DNA of 64,000 nucleotides from NCBI GenBank assembly GCA_902622875.1, contig CACNRW010000002.1:62001-126000 (forward strand), written 5' to 3'. Positions 24,883 through 54,157 of this stretch are shown in pieces (the stretch's first letter is position 1; each line of letters starts with the position of its first letter). Below the pieces are notes generated by a model, which saw nothing but the letters and a program-made list of their open reading frames with translations, was not told the origin of the DNA and searched no databases. The position numbers and the translations under genes were made by a program. The stretch is from an uncultured SAR116 cluster alpha proteobacterium (lineage in GTDB: Bacteria; Pseudomonadota; Alphaproteobacteria; Puniceispirillales; Marisalimonadaceae).

Positions 24883-24898
24883 TCAAATTTATATCCTA

Positions 24899-25684: not shown

Positions 25685-25699
25685 TTATTACTCCTATTG

Positions 25700-27160: not shown

Positions 27161-27178
27161 TTTTAAAAACCTTTACCT

Positions 27179-27568: not shown

Positions 27569-27594
27569 TTTTCCCTCGTTTCTGAAACTATTTT

Positions 27595-29617: not shown

Positions 29618-29665
29618 AAGACTTCTCTATGTTAATAAATAAAAAAATAATAACTAAAATTATTT

Positions 29666-31192: not shown

Positions 31193-31212
31193 TTTTGGTC
31201 CTAATATCCTAA

Positions 31213-35088: not shown

Positions 35089-35091
35089 TTA

Positions 35092-36430: not shown

Positions 36431-36477
36431 TTTTTTTACTCCAATACACGAATAATGTTAGTGAAAGTAAATATTTC

Positions 36478-37116: not shown

Positions 37117-37144
37117 AATTAAAAAATCCCAGTATCGTATCCTT

Positions 37145-37894
37145 TTAATGTCCTAAAACGTATTCAATAACCTTTTTATCCGATAATGCTTCCTTCGGAG
37201 GTGCATCACATATAATTTCTCCTTGATAGAAAGCAATAACGCGATCTACATATCTTTCAACAATTTCCATATCATGTTCAACAAATAATACAGAAGTTTC
37301 AGTTTGTTTTAAGGCAGCAATTACGATATCCATGATCCCAAACTTTTCTTCAACTGAGACACCTGAGGTTGGTTCGTCTAGTAATATGACTTTAGGATTT
37401 CCAACCACAGCCATGGCAATATCTAATAATTTTCTTATTCCTTGAGATAGTGTACTAACTATATTGTTACTTTGATCCAAAATTTTATATAATTCTAAAA
37501 TTTTATCACATTCTTTAGAAATTTCATCATCAGCTATTGGATCTAACAGTGCTTTTCCATTTTTCTTTGATAGAGACATTGCTATCATTAGATTTTGCTT
37601 AACTGACATTGTCATAAAAACTTGACTTATTTGAAACGACCTACATAAGCCAATATGAGTTGCGTTTCTAGGCTCTATTCCTGTTATATCTTCTCCTAAA
37701 AACTCTATTTTACCACTAGTAGGTTTCAAATAACCTGTGATCATATTTACAAAAACAGTCTTACCAGCACCATTTGCACCAATTATACCTACAATCTCAC
37801 CTTGATTAATTGAAACATTAATATCTTTAGCAGCAATAATTCCAGAAAAAGATTTGTTTAAGTCAGAAGCTTTTAATACCGTATCATTTGACAT
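37145..37894 (-). CDS. LivG-like ABC transporter ATP-binding protein
   Basis: The 249-residue ATPase shows Walker A GANGAGKT, GLCRSFQISQVF as Q-loop, the signature LSQGIRKLLDIAMAV, Walker B VILLDEPTSGVS and the H-loop FVEHDME, all LivG features. ATG 37894 is preceded by GGAAAG at 7 nt; longer in-frame starts would run deep into livM. It overlaps the livM-like gene by 11 nt. It supplies energy for import of the compound captured by the binding protein of this operon. Confidence 0.93.
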   Translation of the reverse strand: MSNDTVLKASDLNKSFSGIIAAKDINVSINQGEIVGIIGANGAGKTVFVNMITGYLKPTSGKIEFLGEDITGIEPRNATHIGLCRSFQISQVFMTMSVKQNLMIAMSLSKKNGKALLDPIADDEISKECDKILELYKILDQSNNIVSTLSQGIRKLLDIAMAVVGNPKVILLDEPTSGVSVEEKFGIMDIVIAALKQTETSVLFVEHDMEIVERYVDRVIAFYQGEIICDAPPKEALSDKKVIEYVLGH

Positions 37895-38846
37895 TTTTTT
37901 TCTTTCCATAATTGAAAACTTTTTCGATGACGGACCATATACCTCCTGGAAAAAAGAAAATGATTGCAAGCAATGTGCCTCCCACAATAGCAGCCCAAGC
38001 CTGTGGTGCCCATTCAAAAGCATAAGTTCTTATAAATTCAAATATAATAGCACCTATAAATGGGGCTAAAATATTTCCCCATCCAGACATAATTGTAATA
38101 AACACTAACTCACCAGAAACATTCCAGTTAACCATAGAATCAGGATCAACTTGACCTAAACTTGCTGCCATTAGTCCACCAGCGCCACCTGCCAAACAGG
38201 CTGACATTACATATTTAATATGAATCGCTTTTTGAACAGAATAACCTAAGTATTCAACTCTTATTTCGTTGTCTTGAATGGCAGTAGTTAGATGTCCTAG
38301 AGTTGACCTTAGATACGCTTGTATAGAGATCGCAGCACAGATAACAAAAAATGTAATTAAATAAAAGAGGTATTGCCTAGTTAATTCCATCCCTAAAAGT
38401 GTAGATGGAGAAATTGACATGCCGTCTGTAGATCCAAGAAACTCAGCTTTTGCTAACAAACCATACAAAACCATTGAAAAAGCAAGAGACAACATTGCAA
38501 AGAATATTTCTCTATATTTTCTTAGAATAAATCCAAGACAAAAACCTAATATGCCTGCAGCAATCACTGCAATTGCAAACCGAAGTAAAATGTCAGTGAT
38601 ACCAAAATATTTTTGACATAACGCTACTGCATATGCTCCAAAGCCATAATAGAGCGCATGTCCAAAAGAAACTAAATTTGTTCTCCATAATAGCATAAGA
38701 CCTAAAATTGCCAATCCTCTGGATAAACCATACATAAAGTTGTTTTGCATCCAGTCAGGAAGAACCAAAGAAGATAAAACACACAAAACTATCATAAATG
38801 TGATTAAAATTCTTACACTTGTATCTTTAAAAATACCTGTAAACAT
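37884..38846 (-). CDS. LivM-like ABC transporter permease
   Basis: The 320-residue membrane protein has about ten hydrophobic segments and the LivM landmarks GLSRGLAILGLMLLWRTNLV, SFGHALYYGFGAY, and the EAA-like coupling sequence around IQDNEIRVEYLGYSVQKAI. AGGA precedes the ATG. It shares its start with the stop of the livH-like gene (one base overlap). With the LivH-like protein it forms the membrane channel; in catabolic operons such transporters often carry aromatic acids, not amino acids. Confidence 0.92.
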   Translation of the reverse strand: MFTGIFKDTSVRILITFMIVLCVLSSLVLPDWMQNNFMYGLSRGLAILGLMLLWRTNLVSFGHALYYGFGAYAVALCQKYFGITDILLRFAIAVIAAGILGFCLGFILRKYREIFFAMLSLAFSMVLYGLLAKAEFLGSTDGMSISPSTLLGMELTRQYLFYLITFFVICAAISIQAYLRSTLGHLTTAIQDNEIRVEYLGYSVQKAIHIKYVMSACLAGGAGGLMAASLGQVDPDSMVNWNVSGELVFITIMSGWGNILAPFIGAIIFEFIRTYAFEWAPQAWAAIVGGTLLAIIFFFPGGIWSVIEKVFNYGKKKNVK

Positions 38847-39742
38847 TAAATTTTCCTTGGTTTTGGTGGTGCAAACAATCCCTCTGGACGAATAATTAAA
38901 ACAATCGCCATAACGGCAAAAACAACAAAAAGTTCTAATATAGGAGCTTGATGAACTGCAAAAGCTCTTAATATACCAACAATTAAAGAACCTATTAGAG
39001 CACCTGGAATAGACCCCATGCCTCCGATAACCACTACCGCAAAGCTTAAGACTACTAGATCAATAGCAAAGCCAGGAGATACAGATGTTGTTGGAGCTAC
39101 ATAAGCCCCTCCTAGAGCACCTAAAATAGCACCACCAATGAAAGTAACAACATAAACTTTAGTTACATCAATACCCATTGCCACGCTTATTTCCCTGTCG
39201 TATATAACAGATTGAAGAAGCTTACCCCATTTTGTTTTTGTTAGGCCATACCAACATGCAAATGCAACTATTGAAGCAAGAAGTATAAGAGTAAGCTGGT
39301 AAACACCTCTGTTTAATCCAACAATGTCAACCCAACCAAGCATCATTGCAGGTTGGTAGGGAAGATAAGGGTCAACTCCAAAAGTAATAATAATTAAATC
39401 TTCAAAAATTAAAAAAACTCCAAAGGTCGCTAAGACTATCAGATGTATATCTTGATTATACATTTTTCGAAGTATAAATCTTTCAATTATGTATCCTAGA
39501 ACTACGCCAACTAAAATCGCAGAAATTAAAATGGCTGGCAAGAAAAGAGCCTCTGACAGTTCATTGTCTGTAATAAAGCCAATAGCAAAAGCTGCTGTGT
39601 ATGCCCCCCACGCATAAAAACTTCCGTGAGCAACATTTAAAATTTTCATTACTCCAAATATAATAGTAAGGCCTAAGCTTACTATAAAAAGGTATGAAGC
39701 ATAGGTTAGACCATCTAATAAAACGGTTGCCCAAAATTGCAT
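38846..39742 (-). CDS. LivH-like ABC transporter permease
   Basis: The 298-residue permease has the LivH start (FWATVLLDGLTYASYLFIVS), ILNVAHGSFYAWGAY and a final IRPEGLFAP, all typical of this family. ATG 39742 is used because GGAG lies 7 nt upstream; an in-frame start at 39763 would overlap the preceding hairpin region. The hairpin at 39765-39796 separates it from the binding-protein gene, so permease expression is probably lower than that of the binding protein. Confidence 0.92.
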   Translation of the reverse strand: MQFWATVLLDGLTYASYLFIVSLGLTIIFGVMKILNVAHGSFYAWGAYTAAFAIGFITDNELSEALFLPAILISAILVGVVLGYIIERFILRKMYNQDIHLIVLATFGVFLIFEDLIIITFGVDPYLPYQPAMMLGWVDIVGLNRGVYQLTLILLASIVAFACWYGLTKTKWGKLLQSVIYDREISVAMGIDVTKVYVVTFIGGAILGALGGAYVAPTTSVSPGFAIDLVVLSFAVVVIGGMGSIPGALIGSLIVGILRAFAVHQAPILELFVVFAVMAIVLIIRPEGLFAPPKPRKI

Positions 39743-39764
39743 TTTAAAACTCCAAAATGGCAAT

Positions 39765-39796
39765 AAAAAAGGATGCTTTAATTAGCATCCTTTTTT
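39765..39796 (-). terminator. Strong intra-operon terminator/attenuator after the ABC binding-protein gene
   Basis: A perfect 12-bp stem (AAAAAAGGATGC / GCATCCTTTTTT) with the 8-nt loop TTTAATTA starts 7 nt after the binding-protein stop codon and ends in six T. It has the form of a Rho-independent terminator in both directions. As the permease genes continue in the same direction, partial read-through would set a high ratio of binding protein to permease. Confidence 0.88.
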
Positions 39797-39803
39797 ATAA
39801 AAT

Positions 39804-41120
39804 TTATTTACACTTTGCTCCAGGCATTCCAGCATTTATCCAGTCTTCGGACTTAGTGCCTGCAGGAGGATAAATACACTCAGGACCGTACATTTTTACT
39901 TTTTCAGCTCCAGGTGTTTTACCTTTCTTATTATATTTAGTGAGACCATAGCCGACAGAGTGAACTGCTTGATGACCGCCACCTCTAGCCATAGATATGG
40001 TCTCTGTAAAAGATTTAAATTTAATATTTTTCATAGCAGCAATCACTTGATCTTGTGTAGGAAACTTGCCTGCTTTTTTCATAGCTTTGTCCATAGCAAA
40101 TTTATAAGCTAATATTGATCTAGCATATTGGTATGATGGACCTAAAGGAAGTGCGTTAAATCTTTTTTTGTATTCACCAATGAACCACAAGTTAAGAGGG
40201 TCTTTATTATCTCTAGCTAAAAGTCCAACATTACCTCGTGTTCCCATTACAATACCATCAGGAAATTTTTTACCTAGGGCGTCAACAGCTGAACCACCAA
40301 CTGACGACACAAAGATTTTCTTTTGGAAAAAACCTCTAACCATAGCTTGCAATGTAAATGCTTCTATATCTCCATTCCAGAAACTTGAGTGAACAACTTT
40401 TGCTTTATCAAGTGATAATGCAGATATTTCAGTACCATATTGACCAACAAAAAGTTTTGGAAATTGCGGCTTGTCAGATCCTTTGCTATCTGGCGACATT
40501 TGTTTCATACCTAATTCAAAAAACTTGTATGAATCTTGTCCCCAAGCATAGTTCTGATTAATACCAGTATAATTTTTTTCATTTGGGTACATGTCAACTA
40601 TGTATCTAGCTGCCGCTAAACTGTCACCAACGGCATTTGCTTGAGTTCTAAAAACATGACTTCTTAATTTTTCTTCATATAGTCTTGGAGTTCCACATGT
40701 TGAGAACACTGTTAACATTTTCAATTCATCTGCAATAGGACCAATTGCCATACAGTTTCCAGAAGAAATATAGCCAATCATTGCATCTACTTTTTGCTTT
40801 TCTACAAAATCTCTAAATAGGCCAACTTGTTTAGTACCACCTCCAGATTCATCGCTGAAAACAGGGTTCATTTTAGCCCCTGCGAATCCTTGAGTATTAT
40901 AAGGTGCTGGCATTGTTCCATTGTTAATTGCATCAATAACAATTTGTGCACCTTGTTTTGCAGGAACACCAAAAACACCTGCTGCGGGTCCAGTTAAAAA
41001 AGAGACAACACCAACTTTAACAGAATCTTTAGCCATAGCTGCTCCTGCAAACAAGCAAGAAGCAACAAGCATTGAAGCTGATGCTATCTTAGTGGTTTTG
41101 TTAAATATTTTGATTTCCAT
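39804..41120 (-). CDS. ABC transporter substrate-binding protein (Peripla_BP_6 / LivJ-like)
   Basis: The 438-residue protein has a Sec signal peptide with cleavage expected after AMA (GAAMA-KDS), then VKVGVVSFLTGPAAGVFG, the opening of type I amino-acid/aromatic-acid binding proteins. It is longer than most LivJ proteins (about 370-400). A GGGAGG Shine-Dalgarno sequence stands before the ATG, consistent with high expression. It is the first gene of the 25-kb leftward operon and has 203 bases of non-coding DNA upstream, where the promoter must lie; I could not pick a convincing -35/-10 pair there. The ligand is unknown; genomic context suggests an aromatic or furan carboxylate. Confidence 0.93.
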   Translation of the reverse strand: MEIKIFNKTTKIASASMLVASCLFAGAAMAKDSVKVGVVSFLTGPAAGVFGVPAKQGAQIVIDAINNGTMPAPYNTQGFAGAKMNPVFSDESGGGTKQVGLFRDFVEKQKVDAMIGYISSGNCMAIGPIADELKMLTVFSTCGTPRLYEEKLRSHVFRTQANAVGDSLAAARYIVDMYPNEKNYTGINQNYAWGQDSYKFFELGMKQMSPDSKGSDKPQFPKLFVGQYGTEISALSLDKAKVVHSSFWNGDIEAFTLQAMVRGFFQKKIFVSSVGGSAVDALGKKFPDGIVMGTRGNVGLLARDNKDPLNLWFIGEYKKRFNALPLGPSYQYARSILAYKFAMDKAMKKAGKFPTQDQVIAAMKNIKFKSFTETISMARGGGHQAVHSVGYGLTKYNKKGKTPGAEKVKMYGPECIYPPAGTKSEDWINAGMPGAKCK

Positions 41121-41323: not shown

Positions 41324-42640
41324 TCATAATTTCTGTTCTTTTTTTTCATAGATTTTACAGATCAAAAAACCACCCACTAGCCCCCAAAAAGAAGATCCAA
41401 CATTTAGAAAAGTTAAGTCTGACATTGTGATTAGAAAAGACACTAATGCTCCAAATGAAAAGCTTCCTGAAAAAGCAGAAATAAAAGTGTTTTTTAACAC
41501 TATTAATAAGGCAATTCCTCCTAGAGAAGCTATAAAACCTGGAGGACAAGATGAAATAAAGCCTGTAAAGAAAGGAGAAAATGTTCCAAAAGCAATACAA
41601 AGAAAAGCAAATATAATTCCACTAGTATAGTGTCCATTAATTGCTGATTTTTTTTTAAATTCTTTAATACCTTCTATAAAGTTTTCTTTACCGTGTTTTT
41701 CAATTAAAAGCTGAACTCTCTCTTTCCCAATTAACTTATTTGCATCAGCAACCTTAACATTATTTTTACTATCATCGTCAGAAACTATAATACCTGTCAC
41801 AGGACCAGTTAAGCAAGATGAGACTGTACCAAAAAAAGAATTTATTATTGAGCCAATACCACATGCAACTGTATATGGCTTGATATAAGTTTTATGCCCA
41901 GCAGATCTAAGAATTGCTAATCCTTGACCATTTTGAATAAATAATACTGTTATTGCTAATGGGATAACTAGTTCAATGTTTGCTTTTAAATTAAATTCAG
42001 GAACAAAAATTGTCGGGATTATAGGGCTGAAGTTCAGGTTATTAAAAACTTCTGGTTGGTTAGAACTAAAAATTATAATAATCCCTACAATTAGAGAGCC
42101 AAGTAGAGGAGGGATTATCCTTTGTAATGAGGGTATTGCATAAATAATAAAATAAGTGATTGTCATTGAGCCTGATAATATGGGCGTTTCTTTTAGAGAA
42201 TATAACCAGTTTAAACTAAATTGAAGAAAAATAGCAGCGACCATTCCCATAACTATTTCAATTGGTATTTTCTTATTTATCCAAGTTAAAATGTTAGTTA
42301 ATCCAAGAAATGTTAAAAAAATACCGGTAACGATATAAGTGCCAACAATTTCATTAAACGAATAATTTTCTATTGATGAACCAATTAATATTATTCCTGG
42401 TATACTCCACATAAATACCAATGGTTGTTTATACCAAAAAGAAAAAAAAATACTTATTACGCTATTAATTGCAAATGCTCCAAACAACCAACTTGAAAGT
42501 TCTTGATTTGTTAGATCGGTCTTAGTGCCTACAAGAAGCATTATTGCTACTGGACCAGTAACTGCAAAAAGAAATGCTACGAAGCCATTAGTAATATTTT
42601 CTTTAGTAATGTCTTTATAAAAATTTTTGACTAAATTCAT
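41324..42640 (-). CDS. BenE-family benzoate/H+ symporter-like permease with an enlarged loop
   Basis: The 438-residue membrane protein has BenE signatures: NGFVAFLFAVTGPVAIMLL, LVFMWSIPGIILI, IPIEIVMGMVAAIFLQF and a late CPPGFIASLGGIALLIVL. Between helices, after VTGIIVSDDDS, there is a charged segment of about 50 residues (to SAINGHYTSG) that is longer than the corresponding BenE loop and rich in Lys/Glu. ATG 42640 is used; TTG 42655 is possible, neither with a strong Shine-Dalgarno sequence. It ends the operon of the 6-hydroxynicotinate-reductase-like gene, so it probably imports the aromatic or N-heteroaromatic acid degraded there. Confidence 0.9.
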   Translation of the reverse strand: MNLVKNFYKDITKENITNGFVAFLFAVTGPVAIMLLVGTKTDLTNQELSSWLFGAFAINSVISIFFSFWYKQPLVFMWSIPGIILIGSSIENYSFNEIVGTYIVTGIFLTFLGLTNILTWINKKIPIEIVMGMVAAIFLQFSLNWLYSLKETPILSGSMTITYFIIYAIPSLQRIIPPLLGSLIVGIIIIFSSNQPEVFNNLNFSPIIPTIFVPEFNLKANIELVIPLAITVLFIQNGQGLAILRSAGHKTYIKPYTVACGIGSIINSFFGTVSSCLTGPVTGIIVSDDDSKNNVKVADANKLIGKERVQLLIEKHGKENFIEGIKEFKKKSAINGHYTSGIIFAFLCIAFGTFSPFFTGFISSCPPGFIASLGGIALLIVLKNTFISAFSGSFSFGALVSFLITMSDLTFLNVGSSFWGLVGGFLICKIYEKKEQKL

Positions 42641-42658
42641 AGTTAATTTACTCAATTT

Positions 42659-43513
42659 TTAGTTAAAACTAATTTGTTTTAAACTTGATTCATTCATAAT
42701 ATTTAAATCAGTTGAGTTTTTTTGTACAATACAAAAACAATCTGACAATTGTATTAATGCTGTATTAATTAAATCTTTTTGAACATAATCTATTGCTGTT
42801 TGGTAGCCATTTTTAAGAGCCTCTTTTATTTCAATTTTTGTTAATTTTCCGACTTCGACTGTAACCGGCAAATTGTTTAAATCACTGTCTTCATATATAA
42901 AATTAGCAGGTTTTTTTTTTATATTTGGATGATCATATATGTCAACCGCGTTACCTATCATTGTTGCGGCTGCGTCTGCTATAGCAGCATTTTTGGCTAA
43001 TACAGTTACAGAATCAGCGATGCCTCTAGAAAAACTTTTCCCTCTCCATCCAGATGTGGCGATACCTCTTGAAGAATTTTTATATTTTATTTCTGTAATC
43101 ATATTTGGAATAGCCGCTAGACTACCTTTCATTGTTTGGTTTTCATTTAAATAAAATGATATATCTCCTCCATTGTTAACATATGCTTTTTCTAGATGTG
43201 TGTCGTCAATTAGAACTTTTAGAATATTATCTGCAATTGAACCAGCGACAGCGGCCATAGGTGTTATATAAGAGGGTATGAATCGTTCTGCAGCATCTTG
43301 CATGCTTTGAGAAATCCTATTATTAAACTTTCTGTTAAGAACTACTTCTTTTTTCAATAAAGTCAGGTCTAATACAAGTTCTTCTAAAAGTGTTTCAAAA
43401 TAATTCCTAGCATTCAGATAAGCTAAATTTTTGTCAATTCCTAAAGCTTCAATAACTATATTTGTAGGACCGTGTTGAAGAAATAACCTATTATCTTCTT
43501 CTTTAATTAACAT
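42659..43513 (-). CDS. UPF0280 family protein (ApbE-related fold)
   Basis: The 284-residue protein opens with RLFLQHGPTNIVIEALG and continues with FIPSYITPMAAVAGSIAD, KAYVNNGGDISFYL and a Gly/Ser stretch GIATSGWRG, the recognised pattern of UPF0280, which is related to ApbE flavin transferases. No function is established. It follows the 6-hydroxynicotinate-reductase-like gene by 12 nt, and I recall these two families as frequent neighbours, so it may attach or supply a flavin or otherwise mature that reductase. It has no signal peptide, unlike exported ApbE. The Shine-Dalgarno sequence is weak. Confidence 0.85.
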   Translation of the reverse strand: MLIKEEDNRLFLQHGPTNIVIEALGIDKNLAYLNARNYFETLLEELVLDLTLLKKEVVLNRKFNNRISQSMQDAAERFIPSYITPMAAVAGSIADNILKVLIDDTHLEKAYVNNGGDISFYLNENQTMKGSLAAIPNMITEIKYKNSSRGIATSGWRGKSFSRGIADSVTVLAKNAAIADAAATMIGNAVDIYDHPNIKKKPANFIYEDSDLNNLPVTVEVGKLTKIEIKEALKNGYQTAIDYVQKDLINTALIQLSDCFCIVQKNSTDLNIMNESSLKQISFN

Positions 43514-43525
43514 TAATTAACTTTA

Positions 43526-44944
43526 TTACAGAAATGATTTTTTTGAGCCATATTCACCACCTTGTTCTATTACATCTTTTTTTGATCTAATATTATCTGA
43601 ATGTCCTCCAATTGATTTATATTGATCTTTATCAATTGTAAATTCCAACGGAGCAACAATGGCGGGGGTAGGTACATATCCAAATGAATTGTCGGGCATA
43701 TCAAAAACATCAACCATAAAAGTAATTCCTCCACCAGGCCAAATATATGGTTTTGCTCCCCCACAAGTTATATTCGTTTTTTTATTTTTGACTGATTTTG
43801 TAAGTTTAATGGGGTTTTTTGTTACTCCTGATCGCAATGAACCACCAGCTCCACCAACAAACATCACAGTACAGAGAGCAGGCTCACAATTTTCTTCAAT
43901 CAACTTAACACTAGGTTTTAGATTTTTAGGAATTATTTTTTTCTGTGGCTTTAAATTTTTATCTAACTGATAGTAAGCAAAATGTTCACCAGTTGTTGAA
44001 ACCATTAAAATTGTAAGACCAGGAAAAGCACCTTTTTTTTCATTCCAGTCTCCTAATATTGTTAATGGATCATCTATGTCGGTTCCACCCCAACCAGTCC
44101 CTGGATTTGCAACTTGAAAATATCTTCCGGGTGTGGATCGTCTTCCTTTAATTGAAATTCCAGTACTTTTCCAGTTTAAAACTTTGCCAGCTTGATGCTC
44201 AGATACAACACCAGTAATATGGTCATCTACAACAACAACTTCGTCCACAAGGTCTTGCCATTGTGAAGCAAACATTCCAATAGTAGCTGATCCGCATCCA
44301 ACTCTCATTTTATCTTCTTTCACACCTTCAATTATTGGCGATTTTCCTGCTTGAACAATTATACTAAGACCTTCATCAATAGACAATTCGACAGCCTCTT
44401 TGTTACACAGTTGCATTAGAGCATTGCAAGTAAGACGGCCTTCTAATTTTGATCCACCAGTTAAATGGTCAACTCCACCCAGAGATAACATTTGTGATCC
44501 ATATTCACTTGTCATAACGTGACCTATTGCTTCACCTTTATACCTAACTATTGACCTTTCAGACCCCAGATGTCTATCAGTGTCAATTTTAACCTTTACT
44601 CCACAATATGAAAAAATAGCCTCAGTAACGACAGTTACAAAATCAGTACCTTCTACTTTGCTACTAAAAATAAAGGGGGCAGGTTTATAATCAGGATAGG
44701 TGGTACCTGATCCTATTGCTGTAATGAAAGTATCATCTTCATGGGTTGTTTCTCCATTCCAATCTGCTCTCAAAAAAGGTTTAACTTTTTCTCCTTTTTC
44801 GATTTTATTATTTAAAATTATTAGGGGATCCAGCCTTATAATTTTACCGTCTTGGTTTGCATATCTATCGCAGGCACCTGACTTGCCATCTGCAATAAAG
44901 CATAATATTGGACATGCATCACACCTAATTTTTTCAGGTTTCAA
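43526..44944 (-). CDS. 6-hydroxynicotinate reductase-like iron-sulfur protein
   Basis: The 472-residue protein begins with a Cys motif C8-x2-C11-x3-C15-x9-C25 (IRCDACPILCFIADGKSGAC) that should bind an iron-sulfur cluster, followed by DRYANQDGKIIRLDPL. This start and length match proteins annotated as 6-hydroxynicotinate reductase (Hnr), the enzyme that reduces 6-hydroxynicotinate to 1,4,5,6-tetrahydro-6-oxonicotinate in Eubacterium barkeri. TTG 44944 is the start, with GGAGG 6 nt upstream inside the end of the Mo-hydroxylase gene (11 nt overlap). The coupling to a molybdenum hydroxylase supports ring hydroxylation then reductive dearomatisation. The exact substrate is not known. Confidence 0.82.
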   Translation of the reverse strand: MKPEKIRCDACPILCFIADGKSGACDRYANQDGKIIRLDPLIILNNKIEKGEKVKPFLRADWNGETTHEDDTFITAIGSGTTYPDYKPAPFIFSSKVEGTDFVTVVTEAIFSYCGVKVKIDTDRHLGSERSIVRYKGEAIGHVMTSEYGSQMLSLGGVDHLTGGSKLEGRLTCNALMQLCNKEAVELSIDEGLSIIVQAGKSPIIEGVKEDKMRVGCGSATIGMFASQWQDLVDEVVVVDDHITGVVSEHQAGKVLNWKSTGISIKGRRSTPGRYFQVANPGTGWGGTDIDDPLTILGDWNEKKGAFPGLTILMVSTTGEHFAYYQLDKNLKPQKKIIPKNLKPSVKLIEENCEPALCTVMFVGGAGGSLRSGVTKNPIKLTKSVKNKKTNITCGGAKPYIWPGGGITFMVDVFDMPDNSFGYVPTPAIVAPLEFTIDKDQYKSIGGHSDNIRSKKDVIEQGGEYGSKKSFL

Positions 44945-47672
44945 TTTCAGCCTCCGAAATAGCCTCTAGTACTCTATGTGGAAGTGCTGGGAGTTTTTTT
45001 ATTATTGCACCAGTGCAATTTCTAAGGGCATTTAGAATTGCTGGAGTAGTAGGTATTAAAACATGCTCCCCCAATCCTTTAGCGCCCATAGGACCCTCGG
45101 GATCAGTTTTTTCTATAAAAATACTTTCAATTTCAGGCATGTCACCAATAGTAGGTATTAGATAATCGTGTAGATTTTCTGTTCTATCTGGAATATATTC
45201 TTCCATTAGAGCTAAACCTAAACCTTGGGCAACGCCTCCTTCGATTTGTCCTTCTGCTAAGAGTGGATTAACTACTTTACCTAAATCGTGAACAGCTGTA
45301 ATTTTTTCTATCTTTATAGTTCCAAGCTCCTTATTAACCTCAATCTCGGCCATTTGGACGCCATATCCATATACAGCATAAGGTTTACCTTGTCCGTTAT
45401 CGTCTAATGGGATAGTGGGAGGGTTATATGTTTCAATTGCAGACAAAACATAACCGTCTTTGTTTTTATCCATTTCATTAAGATTGATAACTTGTTTTTT
45501 ATCTTTATGTTTAACGACAACAGATTTATCTTTAAATTCAATTACAGCATCCAAACCCATATTACTTAATCTTAAAATTTGTTTTCTTAAGCTTATTCCT
45601 GCTAATTCAGCTGCTTTTCCTGAAATATATGTTTGTCTAGAAGCAGATGTTTTTCCACAATCTGGAGTTAAATGTGTGTCAGGTCCTATTAAGTTAAATA
45701 CGTTAATTGGAACACCTAATGCATCTGCGCAAATTTGAGTTATTACAGTATTTGAACCTTGACCAATATCAGTAGCACCTTGGTGCAGAAAAAGCCGACC
45801 AATATTATCTATCCCAATCTTAATAGTTGAAGGATTTGGTAAGGCTGTATTGCCGCAACCATACCAACAAGATCCTAATCCAATACCTTTTTTTATAACA
45901 TCAGAAGATTTATTAAAATTTTTAGTTTTATTGAGACCCACTTTCCACTTATCTGAAAGAGCGTCTAAGCATTCTAATATACCAACTCCATGAAGTTGTT
46001 GACCGCACACAGTTTTTTGACCATCTTGAAGGGCATTAATTTTTCTAAATTCTAACTGATCAATATTACAAATGTCAGCTAATTGGTCGTAAAGAGTTTC
46101 TTGAAGAGCTGCTGCTTGAGGAACACCAAAACCTCTGAATGCTCCTGATATTGGGCCATTACTGTATAATGCGTTACCTAAAGCTTTATAATTTGGTGTA
46201 TAATACGGTCCACTTGCATGTATAGGAACTCTTGTGGCAACTGTAGGACCCCAACTTGCATAAGCCCCCGTATTGAAATTTCCATCAAAAATCATTCCTA
46301 CAATTTTACCATTTTTATTTGCTGAAATTAGTGCATTCATGTCAGCTGGATGTCTTTTAGTCGTTGACATCATGGATTCATTCCTGGTGTAAGCAATTCT
46401 ACATGGCTTATTAGTTTTTAAAGTTACCAATCCTAATAATGGTTGAATTGAAACATCTAATTTTGAACCAAAACCACCACCAGCTGTTGCAGGTATTATT
46501 CTTACTTTTTCTTTTTCTAAACCAAGAATATTAGCGGTATCGTCTCTGTCCATAATTGGAGCTTGAGTACAAGCTTGAATTACTAGTATACTCCCATCCA
46601 TCCAGCTAGCTCCAGCTTCAGGTTCAATGTATGCGTGTTCAACATAAGAAGTTTGTAAAGAGCCTGAAACTTGAAAACCAGAATTTTCTAATACAAGATT
46701 TGGTTCTCCTGAGATAACTTTGCCAACAGTTAGTACATTGTCATCTCTTTCAGAATGAATGTTTGCTATATTTTTTTCTTTCGCAGAAGAAATTGTAAGA
46801 CTCTCCTGTACAGGTTTCCAGTAAACAGGAAAAGAACTTATATCTAATTGACTGATAGAGTTATAATCCCCCGCAACTATAGCTATTGCTTCTCCTTTAA
46901 ATTTTGCCTCTGAAATTGCCAAAGCCGGTTGATCAGCAAAGTTTGGGATTACTCCAAATTTGTTTTCTCCAGGAATATCTTTTGATGTAAGTATAATTTC
47001 CAGGCCATGAATTTGTTTTTTCCATTTATTTAAATCACCAAACTTAAATTTTGCTCTATGGTAAGGTGATCTAATAATCTTAATTAACAGCGAGTCTTTT
47101 GGCCAATAATCAGCTCCAAAAATTTCTGTGCCTAACACTTTTTTAAGACCATCTATTCTAGGAATTCTCTTACCGACAGCTTTTTCATAAAAATCTTTTT
47201 TATCTTCATTGGGATTAACGTCCATAACGGCATTAATAATTTTTTGATAACCAGTACATCTGCATAAAACTCCTGATAATGCTTCTTCTACTTCAGTTTT
47301 ACTTGGCTTAGAGTTTTTTTGAAGAAGGGCGGTTGCAGAAATTAGTAGACCGGGGGTACAAATTCCACATTGAGCAGCTCCGTGTTTTAAAAAAGATTTT
47401 TGTAAATTACTTACACCACAATTACTTAATCCCTCTATTGTTTGTATATCTGTATTTTGTGCTTTTGCAGCTGTCATAAGGCAGGAACAAATAGGTTCTT
47501 TATTTACAAGAATTGTACAAGAGCCACAATCACCAGCATTACAGCCAACTTTTGTCCCTATCAAGCCTAAATCTTCTCTTAAAACCTTACTTATTCTATC
47601 TGAAGGGTTTACATTCAAAACTTGTTTTTTACCGTTTAGAATAAAATCTAATTTGACTTTTATCGCACTCAT
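44934..47672 (-). CDS. Fused 2Fe-2S / molybdopterin subunit of a xanthine dehydrogenase-family hydroxylase, module C
   Basis: The 912-residue protein fuses the 2Fe-2S domain (residues 1-160: GCNAGDCGSCTILVN, CGICTPGL, CRCTGYQK) to the Mo-binding domain (from about 175, EKAVGKRIPRIDGLKKVLG). The Mo part has GGGFGSKLDVS, the loop GAFRGFGVPQ and GAKGLGEHV with the catalytic Glu. The AFRGFG loop places it with purine/N-heteroaromatic hydroxylases and not CO dehydrogenases. It should hydroxylate a carbon next to ring nitrogen using water. The FAD subunit gene ends 1 nt upstream and the Hnr-like gene overlaps its end. Confidence 0.93.
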   Translation of the reverse strand: MSAIKVKLDFILNGKKQVLNVNPSDRISKVLREDLGLIGTKVGCNAGDCGSCTILVNKEPICSCLMTAAKAQNTDIQTIEGLSNCGVSNLQKSFLKHGAAQCGICTPGLLISATALLQKNSKPSKTEVEEALSGVLCRCTGYQKIINAVMDVNPNEDKKDFYEKAVGKRIPRIDGLKKVLGTEIFGADYWPKDSLLIKIIRSPYHRAKFKFGDLNKWKKQIHGLEIILTSKDIPGENKFGVIPNFADQPALAISEAKFKGEAIAIVAGDYNSISQLDISSFPVYWKPVQESLTISSAKEKNIANIHSERDDNVLTVGKVISGEPNLVLENSGFQVSGSLQTSYVEHAYIEPEAGASWMDGSILVIQACTQAPIMDRDDTANILGLEKEKVRIIPATAGGGFGSKLDVSIQPLLGLVTLKTNKPCRIAYTRNESMMSTTKRHPADMNALISANKNGKIVGMIFDGNFNTGAYASWGPTVATRVPIHASGPYYTPNYKALGNALYSNGPISGAFRGFGVPQAAALQETLYDQLADICNIDQLEFRKINALQDGQKTVCGQQLHGVGILECLDALSDKWKVGLNKTKNFNKSSDVIKKGIGLGSCWYGCGNTALPNPSTIKIGIDNIGRLFLHQGATDIGQGSNTVITQICADALGVPINVFNLIGPDTHLTPDCGKTSASRQTYISGKAAELAGISLRKQILRLSNMGLDAVIEFKDKSVVVKHKDKKQVINLNEMDKNKDGYVLSAIETYNPPTIPLDDNGQGKPYAVYGYGVQMAEIEVNKELGTIKIEKITAVHDLGKVVNPLLAEGQIEGGVAQGLGLALMEEYIPDRTENLHDYLIPTIGDMPEIESIFIEKTDPEGPMGAKGLGEHVLIPTTPAILNALRNCTGAIIKKLPALPHRVLEAISEAEIET

Positions 47673-47673
47673 A

Positions 47674-48525
47674 CTAATCTTCGAGGTTAAATTTACTAAG
47701 AGTTTTAATTATTGCATTTTTTACAAGCACTTTTGATACTTTTAGCCTGTAAGAATTAGTTCCTCTAATATCATTAATAGGGGATAGGTATTCTTCATAA
47801 TTAAAATTTAAAATAAGTGTAGATAATTCATCTTTTATGCTTTTACCTATCAACATATTTTCTAATGACTTTATTCTTTTTGCAACAGCGCTACAAGAAC
47901 CAACAGAAATGGCAATATCAGATATGATATCTTTCTCTAGATTTAATTTGCAAGCAATCATAGCAATTGAAATTACTAAATATTTACGTGCACCTAACTT
48001 CAAAAAAGAGGAGTATCCTATTTCAGCTTCTTTAGGTATTAGTATAGCTGATAATATTTCATTATTCTTTAATTCTGTCTTTCTAGATCCTTTTATAAAA
48101 TCTTCTAACTTTAACACTCGTTTGCCATTGACAGATAATAATTCAATTGATGCATCCAGAGATAAAAGGCAAGGAACACCGTCAGCTGCGGGAGAAGCAT
48201 TGCATAAATTTCCTCCAATAGTTCCTAAGTTTTGAATTTGTCGTGAACCTATTTCAAGACTGCATTCTTTAAGCATATCATAGCATTTGGGCAAATTATT
48301 GTTTTCTACAATGTCTGTCCAGGTAACTCCAGATCCTATTCTTCTGAACCCATTTTCAAAATCTACATTTTTAAGGGATTTTATACCTGAAATATCTAAA
48401 ATATTATCACCAAGATTATCTTGTTGGGTTGAAGGAAGTAGGTCAGTACATCCAGCAGCTATGGTTAGTTTCTCTCTTGACAAACTATCGAGGGCCTCAT
48501 TTATTTTATCTGGTCTATAATACAA
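47674..48525 (-). CDS. FAD-binding subunit of molybdenum hydroxylase, module C
   Basis: The 283-residue subunit has IAAGCTDLLPSTQQDNLGD (the xanthine-dehydrogenase form of the FAD motif, in place of AGGQS) and LGTIGGNLCNASPAADGVP, followed by SFLKLGARKYLVISIAM. It differs clearly from the FAD subunits of modules A and B and fits the purine/N-heterocycle branch. TTG 48525 is the start; it has no clear Shine-Dalgarno sequence. It is the first gene of the leftward operon and is separated from the divergent hyuA-like gene by 140 bases. Confidence 0.92.
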   Translation of the reverse strand: MYYRPDKINEALDSLSREKLTIAAGCTDLLPSTQQDNLGDNILDISGIKSLKNVDFENGFRRIGSGVTWTDIVENNNLPKCYDMLKECSLEIGSRQIQNLGTIGGNLCNASPAADGVPCLLSLDASIELLSVNGKRVLKLEDFIKGSRKTELKNNEILSAILIPKEAEIGYSSFLKLGARKYLVISIAMIACKLNLEKDIISDIAISVGSCSAVAKRIKSLENMLIGKSIKDELSTLILNFNYEEYLSPINDIRGTNSYRLKVSKVLVKNAIIKTLSKFNLED

Positions 48526-48665
48526 TTGTCAGCTACTAAATAAATTTTAAACTTAATTAAATTTTCTACAAACGTTGATGAAAAACATAATATATGATCT
48601 AACATTTTTTTGGAAAAAATTTAAAGTAAAAATTAATCTTATCTATTATGCATTGGCAATGACAT

Positions 48666-50738
48666 ATGAAACAAGACAATCAAATTTCAACAAATTTTAA
48701 TGTTTTAGGTATAGATGTAGGAGGAACATTCACAGACCTCATTTATGTTGATAAGGAAAATAATATTATAGAGTTTACTAAAGTTCCAACTTCCCCAAAA
48801 AATCAAGCGTTTGGTGTCATGGATGCTATTAGAAAAGCAGATTTAAAATTAGATCAAGTAAAATTAATTGTCCATGGAACAACCACTACAACAAATGCAT
48901 TATTAGAGAGAAAGTTATCAAAAACTGGCCTTATAACTACAAAAGGTTTCAAAGATGTCATTGAACTAGGCAGAAGAACTAGGCCAAATTCCTATGGAAT
49001 GCATGGAAAGTTTGTCCCAATTATATCTAGAGATTTACGTTTTGAAGTAAGTGAAAGAGTTGATGCAAAAGGTAATGTAATTACGCCTCTTAATGAAATA
49101 GAAGTTAAAAAAAATGCTGAAAAACTTCTTGAATTAGGATGTGAGTCAATTGTCATACATTTTCTACATTCTTACGCAAACAATAATCACGAATTGAGAG
49201 CTTTTGAAATAATATCAGAATCTTGGCCAAATAATTATATCACAATGGGCCACTCATTATTATCCGAAAATAGAGAGTACGAGCGAGGGGTCACTGCTGC
49301 TATTAACGCAAGTGTACAGCCAATTCTTGAAAAATATCTTAGAAAGTTAGAAAATGAACTTTCGATATCTAATTATAAAAATGAATTGCTCGTAATGAAT
49401 GGGAATGGAGGAACTATTTCCTCAAAAATGGTTGTCAATGAAGCAGCTAAAACTGTTATGTCTGGACCTGCTTCTGGTGTAATTGCTGCAGCTCATACTG
49501 GGCAGTCAACAGGAATTAATAATATTATAACCTATGACATGGGAGGGACTTCCACAGATGTTGCATTGATTATTGGTAACCAACCATCTGTTTCAAGTGA
49601 TCTTGAAGTGGAATACGGTATGCCTGTCCATGTGCCTATGGTAGATGTTAGAACCGTTGGTGCTGGAGGTGGTTCTATAGCTAAATTGAATTTAGCAGGC
49701 TTGTTAGAAGTTGGGCCTGAAAGTGCAGGTTCTTTCCCAGGTCCAATTTGTTATGGAAATGGAGGAACTATCCCTACTATTTCAGATGCTAATCTCCTTT
49801 TAGGTAGATTAAATATATCAAAAATTATTTCTGATAAAAATAAAGTTTCTATAGTTGATATTAAAAAGATATTTCTTAAAAAACTAAGTAAGAGTTTGCA
49901 TTTGGATGAAATTAAAACTGCTGAAGCTGTAATTAAAATTGCAAATACAAAAATGGCAGGGGCCATTCGCATGGTTTCAATATCACTAGGTGTTGATCCT
50001 CGAGATTTTACTTTATTTGCATTTGGAGGAGCAGGGCCGCTTCATGCTAGTGCTCTAGCAAAAGAATTAGGAATTCCAAAGGTATTGGTTCCAGCACGTC
50101 CAGGAATAACCAATGCATTAGGTTGTGTTGTTGCAGACTTAAGACAAGATTTTACAAACACTTTAAATACGCCCATAGATAAAGTGAACATTCTTGATTT
50201 ACATTCCCTTTTTGAGGAACAAGAGAAAAAAGGAGTTGAATTAATAAAAAAACAAGGACTTAAGCTCACTAGGATTAGCTCAAATTTTAGCTTAGATATG
50301 CAATTTATTGGTCAAACTCATATTTTAAGAATTTATTTACCTAATTCTTACCCAGACTTAGATTATTTACAAAAAAGTTTCGAAAAATCGTATCTAAATA
50401 GGTTCAAAGTAAAATTATCAGAAATTAAGGCCAATATAGTAAACGTAAACACTACAATTCAAGGACATAAAGCCCCTTTTGATATTTCTTTGTTAAACAA
50501 TAAGTTAGATAAACGTTTGGATTTAGATGATGCATTATTAGAATATAGAAATGTCTATTTTAAAGATAAATTTTTGAATACTCCAATCTATTCTCGCGAT
50601 AGAATGCCATTTGAATTTCAAATGAAAGGACCTGCTATAATTGAACAAATGGATACAACCACACTCATAGAACCCGACGATAAATTATATGGAGATTATT
50701 TAGGGAATATGTTTATTGAAGTTGGAGATTTTTCATGA
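48666..50738 (+). CDS. Hydantoinase/oxoprolinase subunit A (HyuA family)
   Basis: The 690-residue protein carries two actin-like ATPase motifs: GIDVGGTFTDLIYVD near the N-terminus and YDMGGTSTDVALIIG near residue 290, with VHGTTTTTNALLERK between them and FGGAGPLHASALA later. This is the HyuA/5-oxoprolinase A family, which opens lactam or hydantoin rings with ATP. It overlaps the HyuB-like gene by 4 nt. It is divergent from the module C operon, 140 nt away, and could hydrolyse the lactam formed by the Hnr-like reductase. Acetone-carboxylase-type chemistry is less likely because no third subunit is present. Confidence 0.93.
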   Translation: MKQDNQISTNFNVLGIDVGGTFTDLIYVDKENNIIEFTKVPTSPKNQAFGVMDAIRKADLKLDQVKLIVHGTTTTTNALLERKLSKTGLITTKGFKDVIELGRRTRPNSYGMHGKFVPIISRDLRFEVSERVDAKGNVITPLNEIEVKKNAEKLLELGCESIVIHFLHSYANNNHELRAFEIISESWPNNYITMGHSLLSENREYERGVTAAINASVQPILEKYLRKLENELSISNYKNELLVMNGNGGTISSKMVVNEAAKTVMSGPASGVIAAAHTGQSTGINNIITYDMGGTSTDVALIIGNQPSVSSDLEVEYGMPVHVPMVDVRTVGAGGGSIAKLNLAGLLEVGPESAGSFPGPICYGNGGTIPTISDANLLLGRLNISKIISDKNKVSIVDIKKIFLKKLSKSLHLDEIKTAEAVIKIANTKMAGAIRMVSISLGVDPRDFTLFAFGGAGPLHASALAKELGIPKVLVPARPGITNALGCVVADLRQDFTNTLNTPIDKVNILDLHSLFEEQEKKGVELIKKQGLKLTRISSNFSLDMQFIGQTHILRIYLPNSYPDLDYLQKSFEKSYLNRFKVKLSEIKANIVNVNTTIQGHKAPFDISLLNNKLDKRLDLDDALLEYRNVYFKDKFLNTPIYSRDRMPFEFQMKGPAIIEQMDTTTLIEPDDKLYGDYLGNMFIEVGDFS

Positions 50739-52477
50739 CTATCGATAAAATAACATTGTCAGTAATTCAAGCTGGTTTACAGCAAGTATGTGATGAAATG
50801 GATTTAAGTTTTTCTCGTGCTGCTTTTTCTCCAGTTATTTCAGAGGCAAATGACAGATCGGATGGTATCTATGCAGCTGATAACGGTGATTTAATTGCTC
50901 AGGGTATAGGTGGATTACCTGTCTTTGTTGGTACAATGGAGTACTCTACTAGAGAATTAATAAGATTAATTAATGAAGGAAAAGTTGATCGACCTAATGA
51001 AAAAGATATTTACATAGTCAACGATCCATATATTGGTGGCACTCACTTAATGGATGTTAGGTTTGTCAAACCTTATTTTAGAAAAGGTAAAATTTTTTGT
51101 TGGCTATCTAATACTGGTCATTGGCCTGATATTGGTGGGAGTGTTCCAGGAGGTTTTTCAGCCTCTGCTACAGCAGTTGAACAAGAAGGCTTAAGATTGC
51201 CGCCAGTAAAACTTTTTAAAAAAGGTAGATTAGATAATGAGATTTACTCAATAATTTGTTCTAACATAAGAGTTGCTGATCAAAGAATTGGGGATGTAAA
51301 GGCCCAAGAAGCGGCTCTTTTAGTTGGAGAAGAACGGTTAAATTTTTTGTTAGATAAGTATGGTGATGAGGTTGTTCAAAATAGCATATCATTTTTAAGA
51401 CAAACAGCTTGTAATCAAATGAAATCCTTTATACAAGAAATTCCAAATGGTGTTTACAAATCCTCTGCTTGGGTTGATTCTGATGGAGTGATAAACGAGC
51501 CTCTAGAAATTAAATTAGTAATCACCAAAAAAGATGAAGAGTTAGAGTTTGATTTTTCTGGTTCATCTAAACCTTGTAAGGGGCCAATGAACTCAGTTTT
51601 AGCCACTACTTTGAGTTCTGTCTATTTAGCTATTAGACATATTTTTCCTGAAGTACCCATAAACGGTGGTGCTTTTATTCCTCTCAAAGTTAAAAGGCCA
51701 TTAAATACATTTTTAGATGCTCATTATCCAAGACCTGTTTCAGGTTGCGCGGCTGAGGTGTCACAAAGGATTGCTGAAGCAATTTTTATTGCATTAGTTG
51801 AGGTTCTTCCTTCAAGAGTTACCGCTGCACCAGCGGGCACTAGTGGGAATTTTGCTTTGGGTGGTTTTAATGAGGAATCGAATAGTGATTTTGTAATGTA
51901 TCAATTGTCGGGTGGAGGTTATGGTGGTAATGCAGATCATGATGGCTTAGCCAATGGATGCTCAACAATAGGCATATCTAAAGCACCTCCTGTAGAGATA
52001 ATGGAACAGAAGTTTCCAGTATTATATCACCATTATGCACTTCATGAGGGTTCAGGAGGAGCAGGGAAGCAAAGAGGTGGCTTTGGTTTAGATTACAAGT
52101 TAGAGATTTTATGTAAAAATGCTCAAGCAAGTTTTGTCATGGATCACGGCAGATACGGTCCACAAGGAGTTATGGGTGGGATGGATGGTCAAGTCAATGT
52201 TGTAAATGTTGATCAGTCTAACAAAGTTTATACACCTATCCATTTATCCAAAGAGCAAGATATTCAACTTACCAAAGGTGATACAGTTCACGTAAAGACA
52301 CCAGGAGGTGGAGGTTATGGTTCTCCATATGACAGAGACGAATTATTGGTACTGCAAGATGTAAAGGAAAAAAAATACTCTATAAAAGAAGCAATTGAAC
52401 TTTTTGGTGTAAGTATTAAAGAAAATGATTTGAAAATTAATCAAAAAGAAACAAAACTTTTGCGTCAAAAAAAATGA
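50735..52477 (+). CDS. Hydantoinase/oxoprolinase subunit B (HyuB family)
   Basis: The 580-residue protein has VIQAGLQQVCDEMDLSFSRAA, YIVNDPYIGGTHLMDVRFVKP, LSNTGHWPDIGGSVPGG and GGAGKQRGGFGL, all standard for HyuB. Together with HyuA it forms an ATP-dependent cyclic amide hydrolase in the cytosol. GGAG lies 7 nt before the ATG, within the end of hyuA. A DmdB-like ligase follows after 45 nt, so an acid released by ring opening could be activated directly. Confidence 0.93.
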   Translation: MTIDKITLSVIQAGLQQVCDEMDLSFSRAAFSPVISEANDRSDGIYAADNGDLIAQGIGGLPVFVGTMEYSTRELIRLINEGKVDRPNEKDIYIVNDPYIGGTHLMDVRFVKPYFRKGKIFCWLSNTGHWPDIGGSVPGGFSASATAVEQEGLRLPPVKLFKKGRLDNEIYSIICSNIRVADQRIGDVKAQEAALLVGEERLNFLLDKYGDEVVQNSISFLRQTACNQMKSFIQEIPNGVYKSSAWVDSDGVINEPLEIKLVITKKDEELEFDFSGSSKPCKGPMNSVLATTLSSVYLAIRHIFPEVPINGGAFIPLKVKRPLNTFLDAHYPRPVSGCAAEVSQRIAEAIFIALVEVLPSRVTAAPAGTSGNFALGGFNEESNSDFVMYQLSGGGYGGNADHDGLANGCSTIGISKAPPVEIMEQKFPVLYHHYALHEGSGGAGKQRGGFGLDYKLEILCKNAQASFVMDHGRYGPQGVMGGMDGQVNVVNVDQSNKVYTPIHLSKEQDIQLTKGDTVHVKTPGGGGYGSPYDRDELLVLQDVKEKKYSIKEAIELFGVSIKENDLKINQKETKLLRQKK

Positions 52478-52522: not shown

Positions 52523-54157
52523 ATGTTAGGTTTAATGCAAGACCATCCATTATTAATTTCAAGTATTTTTGAACATGCTGTAAGTAATTATGGAAAACAA
52601 GAAATTGTATCAAATACAGTTGAAGGTGGCATCCATAGATACGATTATTCAAGCTGGGGTAGGAGAACAAAGAAATTAGCTAATGCTCTTAAATCACTGA
52701 ATTTAGAGCAAGGTGATAAAGTTGGAACTTTAGCTTGGAATGGTTATAGACACTTAGAAATATACTATGCGACATCGTCTAGCGGCCTAATCTGTCATAC
52801 CCTCAACCCTAGGCTGCACCCTGACCAGATATCTTATATTGTTAATCACGCAGAAGACAAAGTCTTATGTGTTGATTTGAATATTTTACCATTAATAGAA
52901 AAGGCATCAGAAAATTTTAAATCAGTTGAAGCTTTGATAATTTTGACTGATGAAAAGAATATGGTTAAACCTGATATCAAAGATGGGATTAAGGTCATAT
53001 GTTATGAGGATTTTATAAAAGATCAGTCTGATGAATTTATTTGGCCACAATTAGATGAGAAAACAGCTTCATCCTTATGTTACACCTCTGGAACAACCGG
53101 CAATCCAAAAGGAGTGCTTTATTCACATAGATCAACAGTGTTGCATGCATATGGAATGAACTTAAAAGATGTGGTTCCTTATGGAGCGAAAGACGTAGTA
53201 CTTCCTGTAGTTCCAATGTTTCATGTTAATGCTTGGGGAACACCTTACGCCGCTCCAATGTGTGGAACCAAGATAGTTTTTCCTGGTGCTAAATTAGATG
53301 GCAAAAGCTTAACAGATCTTATGAATGCTGAAAATGTAACTATTTCTTTAGGAGTTCCTACAATTTGGCTTTTATTATTAAATTATTTAAGGGAATCTGG
53401 GAAAAAAATAGATACGGTAAAAAGACTTGTTATTGGCGGATCTTCATGTCCTAGAACTTTATTTGAGGGTTTCGAAGATGAATTTGGGGCAGAAGTAATA
53501 CATGCATGGGGTATGACCGAAATGAGCCCGTTAGGAACTGTTAATATGCCTGCATTAGCTGAGGAACCAAAAAATAGAACTGAATATTATGATCAAAAAA
53601 TTGCACAAGGTAGGACAATTTTTGGTCATCAAATGAAATTAGTTGATGATGAAGGTAATGATTTACCTGAAGACGGAGAAACTCAGGGCAGATTACTTTC
53701 AAAAGGTTTTTGGGTTCTTAAAGAATATTATAAAGATACTTCGGAAAAGGATAGGTTTCTTGAGGGAGGATGGTTTGATACTGGGGATGTTGCTAAGATA
53801 GATGCAGATGGTTTTATGACAATAACAGATAGAACGAAGGACATAATCAAATCTGGTGGGGAATGGATAAGTTCTATAGATTTAGAAAATATTTGTGTTG
53901 GTCATCCTGAAGTAGCAAATGCTGCAGTTATTTCTGTTCCTCACGAAAAATGGGAGGAAAGACCAATAGTTATTGTTCAACCTATGCCGGACAAATCACC
54001 TTCAAAGGATGAGATTCTAAATATGTATGAAGGTAAGATAGCAAAATGGATGATACCAGATGATGTAATTTTTACAGATAATATTCCTTTAGGAGCCACT
54101 GGCAAAATATTAAAAAACAAACTCAGAGAACAATTTGGTGGTCATAATATAAGTTAA
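52523..54157 (+). CDS. Acyl-CoA ligase, DmdB / fatty-acyl type
   Basis: The 544-residue ligase starts [19 protein letters not shown] and has [21 protein letters not shown], the form found in 3-methylthiopropionyl-CoA ligase (DmdB) and close long-chain or medium-chain ligases. Core motifs: [62 protein letters not shown] and a catalytic Lys in [17 protein letters not shown] precedes the ATG. It could activate methylthiopropionate, a fatty acid or the ring-opened acid from the HyuAB step; no dmdA, dmdC or dmdD is recognisable here, so a DMSP role is only one option. Confidence 0.91.

Follow-up and report, generated by a model that had tools for sequence, protein, structure and literature searches.

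A putative reductive pyridine-carboxylate gene cluster of a SAR116 alphaproteobacterium in which ATP-dependent HyuAB probably stands in for enamidase

The 64,000-nucleotide stretch considered here (hereafter the window) comes from an uncultured SAR116 cluster alphaproteobacterium, a member of a group known as aerobic (GenBank assembly GCA_902622875.1, contig CACNRW010000002.1, positions 62,001 to 126,000), and it carries two facing gene sets that together resemble a machinery for the reductive degradation of nicotinate or a close relative. A preliminary description, made from the sequence alone, had seen in them an aerobic pathway for N-heteroaromatic rings; its gene positions, gaps and overlaps are all confirmed by the open reading frames of the window, as follows:

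41324..42655, minus strand: BenE-family symporter (PF03594, 222 bits)
42659..43513, minus strand: UPF0280 protein with an ApbE/Ftp flavin-transferase fold (AlphaFold model compared by Foldseek and VIA; among NCBIfam profiles, PRK04334-type models only, all below cut-off)
43526..44944, minus strand: Hnr, a 6-hydroxynicotinate reductase-type protein (57–67% identity to 26 plasmid proteins)
44934..47672, minus strand: nicotinate dehydrogenase-type hydroxylase, fused 2Fe-2S and molybdenum (Mo) subunit (Pfam Fer2, Fer2_2, MoCoBD_1, MoCoBD_2)
47674..48525, minus strand: flavin adenine dinucleotide (FAD) subunit of the hydroxylase (PF00941, 131 bits; PF03450, 51 bits)
48666..50738, plus strand: HyuA, ATP-binding subunit of a putative ATP-dependent lactamase (PF01968, 288 bits)
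50735..52477, plus strand: HyuB, putative metal-binding lactamase subunit (PF02538, 501 bits)
52523..54157, plus strand: DmdB-like acyl-CoA ligase of the AMP-ligase type (NF005426, 790 bits against a cut-off of 822)

The leftward genes are tightly packed—1 nucleotide separates the FAD and Mo genes, Mo and Hnr overlap by 11, and gaps of 12 and 3 nucleotides follow between Hnr and UPF0280 and between UPF0280 and BenE—while the FAD gene and HyuA diverge across 140 nucleotides, HyuA and HyuB overlap by 4, and the ligase lies 45 nucleotides beyond HyuB. Pfam and NCBIfam profiles uphold the families first given to BenE, the Mo and FAD subunits, HyuA, HyuB and the AMP ligase. Hnr is carried by 15 of 58 genomes of the family to which the host belongs, its own included, and 14 Hnr loci of the family have UPF0280 in 14/14, BenE in 13/14 and HyuAB in 10/14. 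As this recurrence is joined by relatives of the Hnr cluster with different gene orders in Alpha- and Betaproteobacteria, the association of the genes goes beyond chance. The closest named Hnr loci are themselves from SAR116, with AG-390-L20 at 96% identity and the next at 76% and 75%.

At the level of sequence, the hydroxylase is a member of the nicotinate dehydrogenase type. When its Mo part is set against solved structures, the top single chain is that of 4-hydroxybenzoyl-CoA reductase (267 bits), with aldehyde oxidoreductase at 255 bits; once the two halves are summed, the closest is the nicotinate dehydrogenase of Eubacterium barkeri (3hrd_A, 264 bits, and 3hrd_B, 207 bits, giving 471), and the stretch SGAFRGFGVPQA is common to the window protein and 3hrd_A. 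This proximity in summed bits agrees with the N-heteroaromatic type proposed at the outset. The reductase can likewise be placed at the level of its family, since 17 of the 26 plasmid relatives are annotated as 6-hydroxynicotinate reductase or hnr, the remainder being hypothetical or unannotated. Its N-terminal motif C8-x2-C11-x3-C15-x9-C25 is invariant, with the four cysteines in 51/51 aligned rows, and from this pattern is likely to be an Fe-S site. Hnr has no match in Pfam or NCBIfam (E 0.001) or among PDB sequences, and its profile returns just two weak matches from the PDB (E 0.24 and 0.67). Its structural model (pLDDT 77) finds no Foldseek match at E 0.001 and, by VIA, reaches Z of at most 4.9, against fragments such as those of T-protein and MreC; as the model is middling and residues 39–90 are poorly modelled, we draw nothing from these structural comparisons. 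The viral contigs searched held no Hnr relative. In one genome (G085, locus L243) Hnr is split over two frames, with the other cluster genes present.

The reduction of 6-hydroxynicotinate to 1,4,5,6-tetrahydro-6-oxonicotinate was described first in the anaerobe E. barkeri and later in the aerobe Azorhizobium caulinodans, and a cluster of Bradyrhizobiaceae SG-6C, with an Hnr homologue 42% identical to that of E. barkeri, has conserved counterparts in A. caulinodans and further proteobacteria (PMC3511419). Aerobic reductive dearomatisation is therefore prior art, with Azorhizobium and Bradyrhizobiaceae as published cases (PMC3511419). The preliminary description had read the core of the cluster well, but an aerobic Hnr pathway such as it proposed is not in itself new. 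In E. barkeri a bifunctional enamidase opens the ring and yields 2-formylglutarate (PMC9304392). The window shares with that pathway a nicotinate dehydrogenase-type hydroxylase, here with a fused FeS/Mo chain, and an Hnr-type reductase, whereas its genome has HyuAB and no enamidase was found in it. The A. caulinodans/SG-6C cluster has genes for the first three steps, presumably including an enamidase, and the available part of its description names no HyuAB (PMC3511419); UPF0280 is likely among the features that it shares with the window cluster. In the titles and abstract openings of the open-licence literature, none of the matches listed links nicotinate degradation to either HyuAB or UPF0280. 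The new part of the cluster is thus the ring opening by a candidate ATP-dependent opener in place of enamidase, in a pathway that is otherwise known.

One argument for such a replacement comes from how the two openers are distributed. A sample of 385 genomes of the class was searched for Hnr, enamidase and the window HyuB, with the thresholds for the openers placed where the ranked identities drop (enamidase, from 64% to 45%; HyuB, from 60% to 58%). Among the 68 genomes with Hnr, enamidase (at least 64%) is found in 29 and HyuB (at least 60%, the window's own genome included) in 39, with none having both and none having neither; HyuB at this level accompanies Hnr in 39/39 genomes. The combination, which the preliminary description took as new in a streamlined genome, is not peculiar to such a genome, HyuB occurring together with Hnr in 39 of the 385. 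Among the best four enamidase and best three HyuB candidates scored per genome, beyond which further copies may be hidden, the enamidase-type genomes have no HyuB above 41% (limit E 1e-100) and the HyuB-type genomes no full-length or nearly full-length enamidase relative above 41%, short matches only. In the 317 genomes negative for Hnr, HyuB at 60% occurs in none and enamidase in one (G139, locus L261), which has no Hnr match, while G254 and G347 of the same genus have both enamidase and Hnr.

The same pattern repeats on plasmids and in further genomes. All 26 plasmid records with Hnr also bear one of the two openers (16 enamidase, 10 HyuB), and at the same thresholds none bears both. In seven plasmid clusters, HyuAB is present in Fuscovulum, Pseudosulfitobacter, Neorhizobium, strain La 6 and Pleomorphomonas, and an amidohydrolase in Sulfitobacter pontiacus and a member of Comamonadaceae, that of S. 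pontiacus matching the E. barkeri enamidase 2vun at E 1e-106 over 383 residues, nearly its whole length. Another 41 Hnr genomes (14 from the host's own family and 27 from a phylum sample, outside the class sample) have HyuB only in 24 cases, enamidase only in 13, both in two and neither in two, which brings the pooled 109 Hnr genomes to 63, 42, two and two, respectively. As the genomes are related, Fisher values for the 385-genome and 109-genome sets are not true probabilities. In the window's own genome no match to the 2vun family is seen at E 0.001, in keeping with the absence of enamidase claimed earlier; in the 14 further genomes of the family a relative at 36–38% occurs in three, with none at E 1e-40 in the other 11. 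The replacement of enamidase by HyuAB, also part of the preliminary description, is supported by this either/or occurrence and its repeats, and by the swaps considered below; its proviso that homologous clusters might as a rule lack HyuAB turns out differently from what was meant, in that those lacking HyuAB have enamidase instead. Only 37 of 67 class loci show an opener at a distance of up to about 9 kb from Hnr (21 HyuAB, 16 enamidase), and many openers must therefore lie elsewhere in the genome.

This distribution also bears on whether the SAR116 HyuAB might be an independent operon for hydantoin or oxoproline that just happens to neighbour a pyridine cluster. The divergent arrangement across 140 nucleotides, which makes HyuAB another transcription unit, and the existence of HyuB relatives in the absence of Hnr would both sit well with such a neighbour; yet the either/or relation is one of entire genomes and persists when HyuAB and Hnr lie far apart, and the 39/39 association at 60% identity would be hard to obtain from it, so we regard this as highly improbable.

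On the trees, the two openers have changed places repeatedly. A quick tree of the 68 class Hnr proteins requires a minimum of eight opener changes and a FastTree of 85 hydroxylase rows a minimum of six, with four forced by well-supported branches in each; hydroxylases accompanied by different openers are up to 71% identical. The 67 class loci include fused hydroxylase with HyuAB in 15, fused with enamidase in 14 and the NicB type with enamidase in one, and the 13 phylum extras together with seven plasmid loci add NicB with HyuAB in three and NicB with enamidase in five. The notion that the opener is dictated by the type of hydroxylase was accordingly rejected, as the fused and NicB types each occur with both openers.

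The alternative that has to be weighed here is that the two openers, HyuAB and enamidase, belong to separate pathways for different substrates, both of the Hnr type—for example, nicotinate on one hand and picolinate, perhaps derived from homarine, on the other. HyuB and enamidase are indeed unrelated enzymes, transporters vary between clusters, and a VanA-type Rieske demethylase present in some of them could supply N-methylated pyridine acids. Against this, the same hydroxylase types go with both openers, the loop AFRGFGVPQ is found in 84/85 fused hydroxylases of Hnr clusters whatever the opener, and at least four swaps are forced on both the Hnr and the hydroxylase trees; moreover, the loci of Pseudosulfitobacter (L021) and S. 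pontiacus (L022) have the same core gene set apart from the opener and the order of the genes. A division by substrate thus appears unlikely, if less so than a chance neighbourhood.

HyuAB also retains catalytic residues of a known ATP-dependent lactamase. Caprolactamase requires D11 and D295 of CapA and D41, H99, D102 and H124 of CapB, with alanine changes at these six residues abolishing or nearly abolishing activity (PMC8453981). The HyuA motifs D17-VGGT, D291-MGGT and GSFPGP at 355 match the ATP motifs of CapA, and D40, H104, D107 and H129 of HyuB align with the Asp-His-Asp-His metal site of CapB (6yra_B), so that all six essential residues are kept; HyuA further matches N-methylhydantoinase 7hk5 at E 2e-115. 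These residues and motifs suggest that HyuAB could work as an ATP-dependent lactamase. With caprolactamase CapAB, 5-oxoprolinase and N-methylhydantoinase it has in common the ATP motifs, the metal tetrad and a two-subunit make-up; it differs in falling far under the caprolactamase equivalog cut-offs (NF050156 and NF050157, 478 and 293 bits against 1000) and in having Hnr as its genomic partner.

Several observations nonetheless weigh against an exact replacement. Two genomes, G546 and G611, hold both openers, and two Hnr drafts (56% and 59% complete) hold neither; in the close relative G007 HyuB is broken by internal stops, perhaps through an assembly fault. The absence of enamidase from the window's own genome is not final, as that genome is 81% complete. 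Only the 21 of 67 class loci given above place HyuAB close to Hnr, at up to about 9 kb. The 60% line for HyuB was fixed after the identity list had been seen, and relatives at 53–58% occur in nine class genomes without Hnr; a fast HyuB tree nests four members at 57–58% and one at 53% (L271) among the Hnr-linked HyuB. This nesting implies that the HyuB family is wider than the Hnr pathway, and an exclusive tie of HyuB to genomes with Hnr was rejected below 60% identity. Seven other plasmid records have HyuB at 60% or more in the absence of Hnr on the same record. The surroundings of the four HyuB at 57–58% contain HyuAB in 4/4, with another Mo hydroxylase adjoining in three and no Hnr.

Two of these cases have features of their own. 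In the two genomes with both openers, the enamidase (61–62%) sits in a separate locus, with no Hnr in that stretch: in L275 (7956–10803) and L276 (7776–10736) these relatives stand beside a MarR gene and a pair of AA_synth genes, HyuAB lying elsewhere in the genomes. The Hnr-less family (L257, 6312–14669, the one locus of the four whose open reading frames were read; also L258–L260) combines HyuAB, in L257 (identities of about 53 and 57%), with genes named by eye as another kind of Mo hydroxylase, an oxygenase of Rieske type and a DUF849-like cleavage enzyme, and possibly represents another pathway that uses such a HyuAB.

Taken together, the either/or occurrence, the repeated swaps and the retained catalytic residues make it most likely that HyuAB opens the lactam in place of enamidase, and we put at roughly three in four the chance that the window encodes an aerobic cluster that degrades nicotinate, or a closely related pyridine carboxylate, reductively and with this ATP-consuming step. 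The pathway would begin with the import of the ring acid by BenE, after which the FAD/2Fe-2S/Mo enzyme, going by homology, would hydroxylate beside the ring nitrogen, turning nicotinate into 6-hydroxynicotinate. Hnr, as its family suggests, would then reduce the ring to 1,4,5,6-tetrahydro-6-oxonicotinate; HyuA would activate this lactam with ATP and the metal site of HyuB would hydrolyse it to 2-(aminomethylene)glutarate, which could lose ammonia to give 2-formylglutarate. UPF0280, as a partner with the ApbE fold, may load flavin on Hnr.

The last of these suggestions stems from the close companionship of UPF0280 and Hnr. The two occur together in 63 of 67 class loci, and in the 14/14 family loci, 13/13 phylum extras, 7/7 plasmid loci and 78/80 genome-contig loci. 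Of the four class exceptions, one has a cut-off UPF0280 copy at the contig end, one lies on a contig ending 2 bases past Hnr, and the other two show no UPF0280 in the following 0.36 and 0.58 kb; the two genome-contig exceptions are another cut-off copy and L093. The AlphaFold model of UPF0280 (pLDDT 94) has 31 Foldseek matches at E <= 0.001, all of them 2o34 or ApbE/Ftp/FmnB chains, and VIA gives Z of 14.2–15.6 to ApbE-type chains, with the next unrelated one at 7.9, placing it in the ApbE fold; 15 of 57 members are also matched by Pfam ApbE at E 0.1, with 4.5e-5 as the best value. Two residues invariant in 57/57, Ser154 and Asp180, correspond, when matched by eye, to the ApbE active site, whose residues and target motif are those of PMC12052999. 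UPF0280 thus resembles ApbE/Ftp/FmnB in fold and in this Ser and Asp, and differs from them in having no conserved general-base His, just as Hnr has no canonical target motif (PMC12052999). No signal peptide is apparent by eye in its first 40 residues.

On these grounds UPF0280 may be a flavin-loading partner of Hnr, which in E. barkeri is said to bear a covalently bound flavin. Three points tell against it. L093 lacks UPF0280 in the 1.6 kb after Hnr. The general-base His of ApbE is not kept—the best candidate, among three columns matched by eye, is His in 30/57 members and F161 in the window—so that UPF0280 does not present the Ser-His-Asp active site. The target motif D-x-x-[S/T]-G-A-[S/T] is found in 0/51 and 0/16 Hnr rows, with the shorter [S/T]-G-A-[S/T] in 3/51 and 0/16. 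With both the general-base His and the target motif missing, flavin loading stays a proposal. The same two absences would favour a UPF0280 that has no transferase role and is instead a chaperone or an enzyme in its own right, a view otherwise compatible with HyuAB as the lactam opener; the ApbE-level Z scores, the invariant Ser154 and Asp180 and the tight linkage to Hnr speak against it, and we consider it a plausible but less favoured option.

A bolder form of the argument would join the two: HyuAB as an undescribed tetrahydro-6-oxonicotinate lactamase that has been swapped with enamidase repeatedly in proteobacteria and is the commoner opener among the sampled genomes with Hnr, and UPF0280 as a dedicated, non-canonical flavin transferase of Hnr. 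We advance this combination tentatively, at a little under even odds. Were the replacement true, a gene pair could be named for the ring-opening step in over half of the sampled Hnr-bearing genomes, where HyuAB-type genes are annotated as ‘hydantoinase’ or ‘acetophenone carboxylase’ in the records examined. It would also offer a clear example of an enzyme replaced by an unrelated one, with ATP paid for a step that enamidase performs in its absence, and would tie marine SAR116 bacteria to a metabolism of vitamin B3 or similar pyridine acids. The UPF0280 family would, for its part, gain a testable role.

The transport and downstream functions around this core are more variable. BenE matches the Pfam BenE model and falls under the cut-off of the benzoate symporter subfamily TIGR00843 (175 against 203 bits); it adjoins UPF0280 in the 13 family loci that have it and in 0/67 loci of the class sample. 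Many other Hnr clusters carry ABC importers, several annotated as branched-chain type, and one SAR116 locus (L088) has an ABC-type cluster, with neither BenE nor HyuAB within 10 kb. The ligase, scoring below the cut-off for DmdB (3-(methylthio)propionyl-CoA ligase), lies directly downstream of HyuB in three of 10 HyuB loci of the family and behind another AMP-ligase-like gene (23–25% identity) in six, all of one genus (L166, L167, L170, L171, L172 and L174); in the tenth the contig ends at HyuB. A constant position directly beside HyuB in SAR116 was rejected on this count, and outside SAR116 no ligase near Hnr matches it at more than 42%. The CoA activation that the preliminary description ascribed to this ligase has its basis in the gene neighbourhood inside the family: a role in the pyridine pathway is doubtful, and the protein may be DmdB of dimethylsulfoniopropionate metabolism.

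One or two genes of PF06684 (AA_synth) accompany Hnr in 43/67 class loci (e.g., L022 14302–15467) and possibly belong to the same pathway; none was seen in the 14 family loci, and a search of the window's own genome gave no match with its control silent too, so no absence is claimed there. A Rieske oxygenase lies inside the marine clusters L021 (15544–16614) and L022 (16067–17134, VanA-type by Pfam) and would fit an N-demethylation of trigonelline or homarine ahead of ring hydroxylation. Within the window itself, the 15 kb that follow BenE on the strand of the leftward genes (21901–37116) contain parts of at least two further Mo-hydroxylase systems, mostly recognised by eye from the translations: Mo subunits at 21901–24882 and 31965–34334, 2Fe-2S proteins at 29108–29617 and 35092–35568, an FAD subunit at 35561–36430, and two AMP ligases. 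Between these and the cluster, directly downstream of BenE, lies a branched-chain-type ABC importer (about 36478–41120), its binding protein recognised by Pfam.

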